Below are positions 23,664 to 26,852 of a DNA stretch of 35,205 bases, in pieces. Each line of letters starts with the position of its first letter. Position 1 is the first letter of the stretch. The stretch spans positions 1 to 35,205 of the forward strand of contig JAIVGS010000006.1 of assembly GCA_020201435.1 (NCBI GenBank), in the 5' to 3' direction. Below the pieces are notes generated by a model. The model saw only the letters and a list, made by a program, of their open reading frames with translations, was not told the DNA's origin and made no database searches. The DNA is from Myxococcales bacterium (GTDB lineage Bacteria; Myxococcota; Myxococcia; Myxococcales; 40CM-4-68-19). The position numbers were made by a program, and so were the translations under genes.

Positions 23664-25004
23664 ATGCTTCAGGTCAAAGAGCCGACTCTTTTGGACAAGA
23701 TCCTCGCGCGCGAGGCCGTGGTCGGGATCTGCGGACTCGGGTACGTCGGCCTGCCGCTGGCGCTGACGTTCGGCGAGAAGGGCTTTCCGGTCATCGGCTT
23801 CGACATCGACCGGCGGAAGATCGAGGCGATCGAGAAGGGCGAGAGCTACATCAAGCACATCGCGTCCGACCGCATCGCCAGGGCGACCCGGCTGGAGAAG
23901 CCGTTCAGCGCGACGATGGACTTCCGCAAGGCCTCTCAGGCCGACGCGCTGATCATGTGCGTGCCGACTCCGCTGAACGCGAATCGCGAGCCGGACATGA
24001 CGTACATCGAGAACACCGCGAAGGCGATCGGGCCGTACGTGCGGCCGGGGCAGATCGTCATCCTCGAAAGCTCGACGTATCCGGGCACCACCGAAGAGGT
24101 GGTCAAGCCGATCGTCGAGAAGCTCTCGGGGCTGCGCGCCGGCATCGACTTCTTCCTCGCCTTCTCTCCGGAGCGCGAGGATCCGGGCAACCCGAATTTC
24201 AACACCGCGACGATTCCGAAAGTGGTCGGCGGCTACACGAAGCAGTGCACCGAGATCGCCACCGCGCTCTACTCGGCGTCGATCACGAAGGTGGTCCCGG
24301 TCCGCGGCACCCGCGAGGCCGAGCTCACCAAGCTGCTGGAGAACATCTTCCGCTGCGTCAACATCGCGCTGGTCAACGAGCTCAAGCTGCTCTGCGAGCG
24401 GATGAACATCGACGTCTGGGAAGTGATCAACGCGGCGGCGACCAAGCCGTTCGGCTTCATGCCCTTCTATCCGGGGCCGGGGCTGGGCGGGCACTGCATC
24501 CCGATCGATCCCTTCTATCTGACCTGGAAGGCGCGCGAGTTCGAGTTCAACACCCGGTTCATCGAGCTGGCGGGCGAGATCAACTGGCAGATGCCGCACC
24601 ACGTGGTCGAGCGCACGATGGACGCCTTGAACGAGCAGGGGAAAGCGCTGAAGGGCTCGCGGGTGCTGATCCTCGGCCTCGCGTACAAGAAGAACATCGA
24701 CGATCTGCGCGAGAGCCCGTCGATCCGGCTGATCGAGCTGTTCCGCGAGAAGGGCGCTTCCGTCCAGTATCACGACCCGTACTGCCCGAAGATGAAGGAG
24801 ATGCGGCACCAGCCGAAGTACATGCTGGAGATGGAGAGCGTGCCGCTCGAGCAGGGCGTGGCCGAGGCGGACGTGGTGGTGATCGCGACCGACCACGACT
24901 CGATCGACTACCAGAAGCTGGTGCGCGACGCGAAGCTGGTGATCGACACGCGGAACGCGACCAAGAACGTGACGTTCGGCAAGGACAAGGTCCGCAGCGC
25001 ATAA
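23664..25004 (+). CDS. Nucleotide-sugar 6-dehydrogenase (UDP-GlcNAc/UDP-ManNAc type)
   Basis: This NAD-dependent enzyme oxidises C6 of a UDP-sugar to a uronic acid in two steps. It has 446 residues: N-terminal dinucleotide fold (GLGYVGLPLALTFGEKG), SSTYPGTTEE, FSPEREDPGN, the central helix with ELTKLLENIFRCVNIALVNE, the catalytic Cys278 in GLGGHCIPIDP followed by YLTWKAREF, and the C-terminal AYKKNIDDLRESPS and ATDHDSIDY. The HCIPIDPFYL pattern fits the WbpA/WecC group (N-acetylated substrates) better than UDP-glucose dehydrogenase, but the exact substrate is inferred. The ATG at 23664 has a strong GGGGGAGGGG site. It is the last gene of the operon before the repeats at 25008. Confidence 0.92.
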   Translation: MLQVKEPTLLDKILAREAVVGICGLGYVGLPLALTFGEKGFPVIGFDIDRRKIEAIEKGESYIKHIASDRIARATRLEKPFSATMDFRKASQADALIMCVPTPLNANREPDMTYIENTAKAIGPYVRPGQIVILESSTYPGTTEEVVKPIVEKLSGLRAGIDFFLAFSPEREDPGNPNFNTATIPKVVGGYTKQCTEIATALYSASITKVVPVRGTREAELTKLLENIFRCVNIALVNELKLLCERMNIDVWEVINAAATKPFGFMPFYPGPGLGGHCIPIDPFYLTWKAREFEFNTRFIELAGEINWQMPHHVVERTMDALNEQGKALKGSRVLILGLAYKKNIDDLRESPSIRLIELFREKGASVQYHDPYCPKMKEMRHQPKYMLEMESVPLEQGVAEADVVVIATDHDSIDYQKLVRDAKLVIDTRNATKNVTFGKDKVRSA

Positions 25005-25007
25005 TTT

Positions 25008-25102
25008 GGGGACACTCGATTGGGACACTCGATTCGGACACTCGATTGGGACACCCGCACGCGCGGCGCTGTCCAAATCGAGTGTCACCATTGACTGTCC
25101 CC
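25008..25102. repeat. Tandem 13-bp repeat with an inverted copy
   Basis: GGACACTCGATT appears three times with a 13-base period (25010-25021, 25023-25034, 25036-25047), followed by a decayed copy (GGACACCC). An inverted copy, AATCGAGTGTC, is at 25076-25086, preceded by TGTCC. The outer GGGGACA (25008-25014) and TGTCCCC (25096-25102) are also reverse complements. The sequence is AT-richer than its surroundings and non-coding. It resembles REP-type palindromes whose stems end in GGGGACA/TGTCCCC. It may also end the polysaccharide operon transcript. Confidence 0.8.
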
Positions 25103-25154
25103 GTCTTGCATTTCGCCCTCGCGCGAACTGCCGGCTGCGCGTTACAACCAGTCA

Positions 25155-26852
25155 ATGCTGGTTTTACTCGTCGCCGCTGCGGTCGCGTTCACGCCCGACC
25201 AGAAAGACCCCCGCCAGCGCATGCTGGCGGCGATGGCGGAGGAGCTCGAGCGCGCGCACAAGAGCCTGCAGCTGCGCGGACACGAGGCGCCGTACTTCCT
25301 CGGCTACGCCGTGCGCGGCATCGACACCGAAGAGGTCGGCGCGAAATACGGCGCGGTCTTCCTCGATCACACCCGCCACGATCGCCGGCTGCAGGTCGAC
25401 GTGCGGGTCGGCAGCTACCAGTTCGACAACACCGGCCAGCAGGAAGTCTTCGACTTCGACGGAAGCGACTCCGGCTACAGCGCCGGCCGCGAGGCGCCGC
25501 TCGACGACGATCCGGTCGCGCTGCGCAACGCGCTCTGGCTCCTGACCGACGATCATTACAAGAAGTCGCTCTCGGCGTACCTCAAGAAGAAGGGCAAGGA
25601 AGTCTATCGCCCCGACGACCCCGACGCGCCGCCGAGCTTCTCGCGCGAGACGCCGCACGTCTCGATCGATCCGCCGCTCGATCATCCGTTCGACCGCGCC
25701 GGCTGGGCCCGCGAAACGCGCGCGCAGACCGGGCGTTTGCGCTCGCGGCCGGAGCTGTTCGACTCCCAGATGCGGGTCTCGATGGACCACGAGACCCGCG
25801 AGTTCGCCAATACCGAAGGCACCCGGCTCGTCACCGAGCAGGTGATCTACGCCCTCCACGTGCAGGCCTGGACCCGCGCGCCCGACGGGATGCTGCTCGA
25901 GGACAGCCGCGACTACTACGGCGCGCGCGAGAGCGAATTGCCGCGCGGGGAGGTGCTCGCGGCGCACCTCGAAGAGATGGTGAACGAGCTGCTCGCGCTC
26001 CGAGAGGCGCCGGTCCTCGATCCGTACACCGGCCCTGCGCTGCTCGCGCCCGAGGCGGCGGGCGTGCTCTTCCACGAAGCGGTCGGCCACCGTCTCGAGG
26101 GCGAACGCCAGAACGACGACAAGGACGGCCACACCTTCAAAGGGCAGATCGGAAAGCCTATCCTCCCGTTCTTCCTCACGATTTTGGACGATCCGACGGC
26201 GCGCGCGCTGGGCAGCGTCTCGCTGAACGGCTTCTACCGCTTCGACGATCAGGGCGTGCCCGGCCAGCGGACGGCGCTCGTCGACAAAGGCGTCCTCAAG
26301 TCGTTCCTGCTTTCGCGCGCCCCGGTCCAGGGCTTCACGCTGTCCAACGGCCACGGCCGATCCGCGCCGGGCCGCGATCCGGTGGCGCGGATGTCGAATC
26401 TGATCGTCGAATCCTCGAAGACGGTCTCGGCCGCGAAGCTCAAGGAAGCCTTGATCGCGGAAGCGAAGCGGCAGGACAAACCGTTCGGCCTCTTGATCCG
26501 CGACGTCACCGGCGGCAACACCGACACCAGCGGCTACGCCTACCAGGCCTTCAAGGGCCAGCCGCGGCTGGTCTACAAAGTCGATGCGAAGACGGGCGCC
26601 GAGACCCTCGTGCGCGGCGTCGAGATCGTCGGCACGCCGCTGCTCAGCATCAACAAGATCATCGCGACCGGCGACGATCCGCGCGTCTTCAACGGCTACT
26701 GCGGCGCGGAGAGCGGTTTCGTCCCGGTCAGCACCGTCGCCCCGACAGTCCTGGTCAGCGAGATCGAGCTGCAGCGCACCCGCAAAGACAGCGGCCGTCC
26801 GCCGGTCCTGCCGTCGCCGTGGGCAGCTCCGCTCACTTCCGCAAAAAAATAA
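25155..26852 (+). CDS. TldD/PmbA-family metalloprotease-like protein, probably exported
   Basis: This 565-residue protein shows the TldD metal motif HEAVGHRLEGE (HExxxH, His307 to His312) and family blocks SNLIVESSKTVS, LLIRDVTGGNTDTSGYAYQ and GVEIVGTPLLSINKI. TldD-type proteins with PmbA/TldE process peptides in the cytoplasm. This one instead begins with a short hydrophobic stretch (MLVLLVAAAVAF), suggesting export, and is longer than TldD because of about 200 extra N-terminal residues (DTEEVGAKYGAVFLDHTRHD and following). No PmbA partner is adjacent. The ATG at 25155 fits the signal-like N-terminus. The target is unknown. Confidence 0.87.
   Translation: MLVLLVAAAVAFTPDQKDPRQRMLAAMAEELERAHKSLQLRGHEAPYFLGYAVRGIDTEEVGAKYGAVFLDHTRHDRRLQVDVRVGSYQFDNTGQQEVFDFDGSDSGYSAGREAPLDDDPVALRNALWLLTDDHYKKSLSAYLKKKGKEVYRPDDPDAPPSFSRETPHVSIDPPLDHPFDRAGWARETRAQTGRLRSRPELFDSQMRVSMDHETREFANTEGTRLVTEQVIYALHVQAWTRAPDGMLLEDSRDYYGARESELPRGEVLAAHLEEMVNELLALREAPVLDPYTGPALLAPEAAGVLFHEAVGHRLEGERQNDDKDGHTFKGQIGKPILPFFLTILDDPTARALGSVSLNGFYRFDDQGVPGQRTALVDKGVLKSFLLSRAPVQGFTLSNGHGRSAPGRDPVARMSNLIVESSKTVSAAKLKEALIAEAKRQDKPFGLLIRDVTGGNTDTSGYAYQAFKGQPRLVYKVDAKTGAETLVRGVEIVGTPLLSINKIIATGDDPRVFNGYCGAESGFVPVSTVAPTVLVSEIELQRTRKDSGRPPVLPSPWAAPLTSAKK

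Follow-up and report, generated by a model that had tools for sequence, protein, structure and literature searches.

The repeat at positions 25008–25102 of the 35,205-nucleotide stretch of DNA analysed here (the window) is probably a non-autonomous copy of a dispersed family that ends in arrays of 13-bp units instead of single inverted repeats and belongs with a TIRYT/RAYT-type Y1 HUH transposase encoded on contig C190 of the same genome. Each unit of an array is a tip (GGGGACAC) followed by a core of 5–6 nt (TCGTT/TCGAT). The assignment draws on sequence comparison, chiefly on the linkage of arrays to transposase genes, on the phylogeny of those genes and on the agreement of the cores within each genome.

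Structure and position of the element

Direct reading of the sequence gives a two-sided element of 95 bp, in which a left array of three 13-bp units and a partial tip is separated by a spacer from an inverted right array of two units and a partial tip. The features of the element and its two neighbouring genes are as follows.

23664–25004, + strand: upstream gene, UDP-glucose/GDP-mannose dehydrogenase (Pfam PF03721/PF00984/PF03720)
25009–25021, + strand: unit 1, GGGACACTCGATT; one extra G ahead of it completes the tip GGGGACAC
25022–25034, + strand: unit 2, GGGACACTCGATT, identical to unit 1
25035–25047, + strand: unit 3, CGGACACTCGATT
25048–25057, + strand: inner partial unit GGGACACCCG, a tip without a full core
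25058–25069, no strand: 12-nt spacer separating the two arms
25070–25075, - strand: inner partial tip of the right arm, reading TGGACA on the - strand
25076–25088, - strand: inverted unit GTGACACTCGATT
25089–25101, - strand: outer inverted unit GGGACAGTCAATG, with a differing core; the arm terminates in TGTCCCC at 25102
25155–26852, + strand: downstream gene, PmbA/TldD-like metallopeptidase (Pfam PF19289)

The dehydrogenase gene ends in a TAA stop at 25002–25004, and the element begins 4 nt behind it. TRF reports 25009–25054 with a period of 13, 3.5 copies, 93% matches and a score of 85, the top of its 38 rows for the window, and the inverted arms 25008–25040 and 25070–25102 are 85% complementary over 33 nt. 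A search for inverted pairs of at least 12 nt returned four, three of which join both arms and one of which pairs the right arm with 25149–25160; it returned no internal palindrome of reportable length within the 13-bp units. Direct reading, TRF and the inverted arms confirm the tandem 13-bp repeat with an inverted copy that an earlier note on this DNA had described, with the correction that the inverted part is not one copy but two inverted 13-mers plus a partial tip, the outer core being different.

The segment 25005–25105 folds at -27.3 kcal/mol as DNA (z -4.8) and at -52.5 kcal/mol as RNA (z -6.6), with 0 of 200 shuffles as good in either case. The alternative hairpins proposed in the earlier note are therefore possible for this copy, as DNA and as RNA; for spread, however, the inverted arm seems unneeded, because a one-sided array elsewhere in the genome has a clean empty site (see below). 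At the gathering threshold Rfam gave no match in the window, and on this ground a known structured RNA was rejected.

Dispersed arrays and the transposase genes beside them

The genome to which the window belongs (G000) is a 4.76-Mb draft in 363 contigs, many of them ending in arrays. The 12-mer GGACACTCGATT has 58 copies in it and its reversed control none, so the repeat is multicopy and not unique in the genome; by hand count on the match list, 44 of the 58 copies lie exactly 13 nt from another copy. TTGGGGACA has 104 copies, as against 6 for its control. Contigs C4, C45, C60, C132, C143, C153, C163, C193, C267 and C297 start or end at or near arrays. Since arrays seem to break the assembly, these copy numbers are probably lower bounds.

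We parsed 46 array clusters from 58 loci chosen off the match lists rather than from a whole-genome parse; the clusters include the four arrays beside the C190 and C107 transposase genes, and both 13- and 14-bp arrays. Two pairs of loci share long identical stretches (98 nt in L078/L082, 79 nt in L065/L086), so each pair may be one split locus. The longest run per cluster ranges from 2 to 11 units. Clusters occur in both orientations, and 9 of the 46 have at least two units on both strands. An opposite-strand tip lies within 130 nt in 13 clusters and in none of the other 33, a count limited by the 10 clusters that are near the end of the sequence stretch examined. Among the 163 units of arrays with four or more, the main 13-bp cores TCGATT and TCGTTG account for 49 and 46, respectively. 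Mean distance from the three major cores is 0.17–0.37 for the first three units and 2.17 for the last unit, the larger value arising partly by construction because the core of the last unit extends into the flank.

In 31 of the 46 clusters an edge follows the stop codon of an open frame of 120 or more codons by 0–25 nt, compared with 117 of 920 random points. This placement, and a window element that folds far better than its shuffles, would suit transcription terminators or stabilisers of mRNA 3' ends maintained by the host. We regard that explanation as very unlikely. Many arrays cannot form a hairpin, because 33 of the 46 clusters have no opposite-strand tip within 130 nt (with the limit on that count given above); the window site carries no element in three congeners in which both flanks were found; the open frame of an RlmL-like methyltransferase gene contains one of the arrays; and the window has no Rfam match at the gathering threshold. 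A place behind stops is also expected if selection removes insertions in genes.

The methyltransferase site lies in L053 (contig C48), where a five-unit array (L053:1350–1414) sits within a 417-codon open frame of the RlmL-like gene and leaves the frame unbroken. G000 and G002, a genome of the same genus, both have an array at this site, with different cores. A reading of L053 as inverted arrays around a hidden transposase was rejected: the intervening 690 bp read as a portion of the methyltransferase gene, and L053 is for that reason taken as two separate arrays.

Other repeats were seen alongside these arrays. A 14-bp array family (GGGACACATTGACT and the like; L034, L188, L189, L190, L191) coexists with the 13-bp family. 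In L063, L070, L072, L086 and L185, A/G- or C/T-rich sequence stands next to the arrays or close by; it contains repeated CTCGTT-like hexamers and looks as though cores had multiplied without their tips. Further GGGGACA...TGTCCCC inverted pairs with different cores occur in L087, L088, L097, L101, L056, L080, L081, L089, L091, L095, L096 and L100, and some of them (GGGGACACAATACTTA in L087 and L097) match the tips of the C23 transposase.

Y1_Tnp has 21 matches in G000, 17 of them above the family cut-off. The gene at C190 (L033/L066) has five units upstream, with interior core TCGTTG, and five inverted units downstream, with cores TCGATT and TCGATG; a Y1-type transposase near similar copies, which the earlier note had suggested looking for, is thus present, with 13-mer arrays in inverted orientation on its two sides. 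The gene at C107 is flanked by 14-bp arrays, and that at C23 by a single inverted tip, GGGGACACAATACTTAACTCC. G002 contains two relatives of the C190 transposase, each flanked by inverted 13-bp arrays: the one at C163 of G002 matches C190 at 81% and occupies the same chromosomal place (flanking DNA 89% and 83%), and the one at C685 matches it at 74%. G002 also carries 14-bp arrays; no C107-type gene was found in this 61%-complete genome.

Within each genome, the cores of the dispersed units agree with those beside the transposase genes. The interior 13-bp cores of G000 follow TC[GA][AT]T in 125 of 136 dispersed units (55 loci) and in 8 of 8 units beside C190. Those of G002 follow C[CT][TC][TCG] in 37 of 38 dispersed units (20 loci), in 5 of 6 beside C163 and in 4 of 4 beside C685. 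The outermost unit beside the C163 gene of G002 reads GGGGACAC plus GATTCT, and GATTCT is the adjoining flank.

The triple-array pattern GGGACAN{6,9}GGGACAN{6,9}GGGACA matched 120 times in G000, 35 times in G002, once in G006 and not at all in the other nine of the 12 family genomes, and its control gave 0 in all 12. Across the phylum the pattern is unspecific when used alone: 27 of 195 genomes match, 25 of those with at most five matches, and some controls exceed the matches. Transposase relatives at the 55% level occur in G009, which has no array, and in G006, which has one short array, so the arrays characterise one clade rather than the whole enzyme family. That clade comprises the four array-type transposases, which group together in a tree of 86 proteins (support 100/92). 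Outside it fall C23, its G002 relative C605, which has single tips, the G009 relative, which has two tips some 46 nt apart upstream and no 13-bp array at its locus, and a relative from an actinomycete MAG with one AGGGACAC tip per side.

Six of the proteins were aligned. H60-x-H62 and Y119 are invariant in all six, and all six match Y1_Tnp (PF01797) above cut-off. NCBIfam REP_Tyr_transpos (NF047646) matches the C190 protein with E 3.5e-20; the six scores (72.4, 75.7, 66.0, 74.7, 67.9 and 69.3) lie below its cut-off of 80 bits. Five proteins have the Y motif YIELNP and one has YVELNP. At the u position of HuH the six carry S, A, G, S, G and V, and Table 1 of PMC6006769 lists V, Y or F for subclass 2.1. 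Behind the transposase core there is an extension of about 90 residues in which Pfam lists no HTH at E up to 5; one HTH_46 match (E 0.26) overlaps the transposase core and not the extension. A PDB sequence search gave only a weak match to TnpA_REP (4er8, E 0.018). Just upstream of the transposase start in L033, L034, L038 and L173, each of the four has GATGTCAGACCCC in the gap that separates the start codon from the inner TIR edge. In G002, a relative of the C23 transposase (L177:553–1194) is without the usual N-terminus and may for that reason be inactive.

Linkage, the single clade and core agreement together make the association between arrays and transposase well supported at the level of sequence. 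From the comparison alone, the natural inference is that the enzyme moves the arrays.

Sites in related genomes and a possible mode of spread

We compared 12 chosen arrays of G000 with G002, and 10 non-transposase arrays of G002 with G000. Four of the 12 sites (L068, L071, L074, L076) are shared with G002, with different units. Five have no array in G002, as judged by both flanks for L069 and L058 and by one flank only for L067, L063 and L079, and the remaining three (L060, L075, L084) gave no call either way. L069 provides a clean empty site: G002 reads GCTAG|TCGTCGA (L306), and G000 has a 10-unit one-sided array between, with no evident target duplication. The window site has neither GGGACA nor TGTCCC in G002, G005 and G006, each of them located by both flanks. 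The 345 nt that follow the stop in G003 likewise contain neither; there the comparison covers the upstream flank, and the downstream gene is on another contig. The empty allele of the window site is not clean, the neighbouring intergenic DNA also differing between species.

Among the 10 arrays of G002, four (L179, L180, L181, L187) match an array locus of G000 through both flanks. L178 corresponds to L093 by one flank, with arrays at unequal distances, and L185 matches several G000 loci one-sidedly, through DNA that recurs at several places in G002. L182, L183, L184 and L186 have no counterpart among the G000 loci. At two shared sites (L179/L190 and L187/L191) G002 has a 13-bp array where G000 has a 14-bp array, and at L074 the 13-bp units of G000 are followed by a 14-bp-type unit and G002 has 14-bp units. 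The L180/L077 pair has two matching outer units (CTTCG-like, then TCAAT) and different inner ones, a pattern suggestive of descent combined with replacement. For the other shared sites, unit replacement cannot be distinguished from a separate, second insertion into a favoured target.

The site comparison bears on whether these could be ordinary minisatellites, local tandem repeats that grew through replication slippage or unequal exchange, independently of any transposase. Units are near-uniform within arrays (mean distance 0.17–0.37 for the first three) and run length varies from 2 to 11 units per cluster, much as slippage would produce. Nevertheless the same 13-mer family stands at dozens of places in both orientations, with nine clusters having at least two units on both strands; the cores differ between species but within one genome match each other and those beside the transposase; and the site of the 10-unit array is cleanly empty in G002. 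Slippage may well add length, but it leaves the dispersal unexplained, and we think minisatellites unlikely.

A scan of genome contigs confirmed at least 566 relatives of the transposase, of which the best 80 were kept, one of them being G002 itself. In 55 of these best 80, the 220 bp upstream contain GGG[AG]AC and the 220 bp downstream contain GT[CT]CCC; the other 25 lack a tip on one or both sides. For 122 tips of the best 79 relatives excluding G002, the flank at -8 to -1 covaries with positions +13 to +20: in a scan of 175 window pairs, each with 60 permutations that kept the column make-up, the five best pairs lie on one antidiagonal (z 7.6, 7.2, 6.3, 5.6 and 3.8). This covariation suggests that the canonical end is hairpin-like, its outer arm formed by the flank, its inner arm by a guide and its 13-nt loop by GGGGACACCATAC.

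In the same 79 relatives, the 6-nt flank of a tip recurs exactly within 90 nt outward for 48 of 121 tips, as against a mean of 4.7 (max 12) for permuted flanks, a mean of 3.1 (max 10) for shuffled regions and 189 of 4183 random points. By eye, in 20 chosen loci, the copies consist of the flank and then a variable length of tip. Such reiteration is weak at the dispersed arrays of G000, where 7 of 48 edges have it, compared with 89 of 1592 random points (one-sided p 0.017). One locus from a distant Thermodesulfobacteriota MAG (L236) has a 13-bp GGGGACAGAATAT run of two full units at the tip of its transposase, where an array may have begun independently.

If the family is indeed mobilised by this transposase, the enzyme would nick single-stranded DNA at the tip and move or copy tips, which would often land just behind stop codons. 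Arrays would then lengthen by repeated duplication of a tip and its adjacent flank, and newer units would displace older ones at existing arrays. The family-wide reiteration suggests such tip-plus-flank growth as a hypothesis and the 13-bp units fit it; slippage could do part of the lengthening.

More tentatively, and with some doubt, TIRYT enzymes in general may write short DNA at their own nick, each round adding a copy of the flank and a variable length of tip, with a fixed start and a variable end. The canonical relatives would thereby leave ragged reiterations, and one clade would have come to make regular 13- or 14-bp arrays that spread and are overwritten at old sites by each lineage's unit. 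This would amount to concerted evolution of a dispersed repeat with a domesticated transposase as its driver. 

The comparisons themselves offer a substrate with a testable grammar (flank as outer arm, guide as inner arm, loop GGGGACACCATAC) together with a derived tip-array clade. The shared sites with each species' own unit form a natural experiment on the control of a genome-wide population of repeats by one transposase, retained in both species.

Comparison with known systems

The earlier note had likened the element to REP-type palindromes moved by RAYT transposases. The link to a RAYT-kind gene and the multicopy nature hold, and the element is not a classical REP, having neither a palindromic unit nor a conserved GTAG tag. 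According to PMC3733652, REPs are palindromes of 20–40 bp that carry at one end a tag, for example GTAG. The arrays share with REP, BIME and REPIN sequences and their GTAG-type RAYTs the character of short non-autonomous repeats with many genomic copies and a linked Y1 transposase that has cognate repeats on both sides; Y1 transposases of the REP-associated kind are in the genome, and some copies are two-sided like a REPIN. Unlike them, the unit is a 13-bp direct repeat: the single imperfect palindrome of 20–40 nt is absent from the window element, and many arrays are one-sided. The tag was sought beside array edges selected by G[GT]GACA. Of 51 such edges, five have GTAG among the 20 nt that flank them; these five stand at differing distances, so that GTAG does not qualify as a conserved tag, and the columns from -20 to -4, left of the edge, carry at most 0.34 bits. 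Moreover, YIELNP is the Y motif listed for subclass 2.1, for which the REP column of Table 1 reads 'no' (PMC6006769). A classical REP or REPIN moved by a GTAG-type RAYT is accordingly rejected, for lack of a conserved tag and of a palindromic unit, and we hold it to be highly improbable.

A search of the literature for TIRtron, TIRYT, GGGGWSAS, RAYT with tandem repeats, Myxococc- and REPIN, which covered few subscription journals, turned up no description of such arrays in the texts that it reached. The IS200/IS605 elements use HUH Y1 chemistry, and base pairing of a guide inside the end with the flank gives recognition. The covariation described above resembles this flank–guide pairing, with the difference that the covarying guide here stands at +13 to +20 behind the tip. 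We know of no tandem tip arrays in IS200/IS605.

Subclass 2.1 of TnpA_Y1 (RAYT group 1) is characterised by the motifs YIELNP or Y[IV]HLNP and NHVH or NH[YF]H and by a C-terminal HTH/DnaA-like domain. The 2018 survey that describes it cites the consensus GGGG[AT][CG]A[CG], considers it probably equivalent to the TIRYTs (20 of 26 examples) and, in the parts consulted, reports no REP-like sequences beside its genes (PMC6006769). Five of the six aligned transposases have the Y motif YIELNP in common with it. The u residue of HuH, which is V in one of the six, and the C-terminal extension give no clear match to it, and the flank–guide hairpin covariation (79 relatives) and a clade with dispersed arrays are differences from the subclass as that survey presents it.

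Among named kinds the closest is the TIR/TIRYT ('TIRtron') group with the motif GGGGWSAS, in which a RAYT-like Y1 gene lies between inverted repeats, some of them bearing that motif (PMC3733652). Certain TIRs have further copies at other genomic places, including dimers and clusters, and one TIRYT group comes from Acidobacteria (PMC3733652, Di Nocera et al. 2013). Our elements differ in two ways from the account in PMC3733652, as far as the sections consulted go: the TIRs there are single, dimeric or grouped, whereas the TIR here is a tandem array of 13- or 14-bp tips, and one-sided dispersed arrays are unmentioned there. The likeness lies in the plan and in the motif. The Y1 gene of L033/L066 stands between GGGGACAC arrays upstream and inverted arrays downstream, the tip GGGGACAC corresponds to GGGGWSAS, both ends of the window element (GGGGACAC and GGGGACAG) fit that motif, and the TIR recurs as a repeat family across the genome, as is true of some described TIRs.
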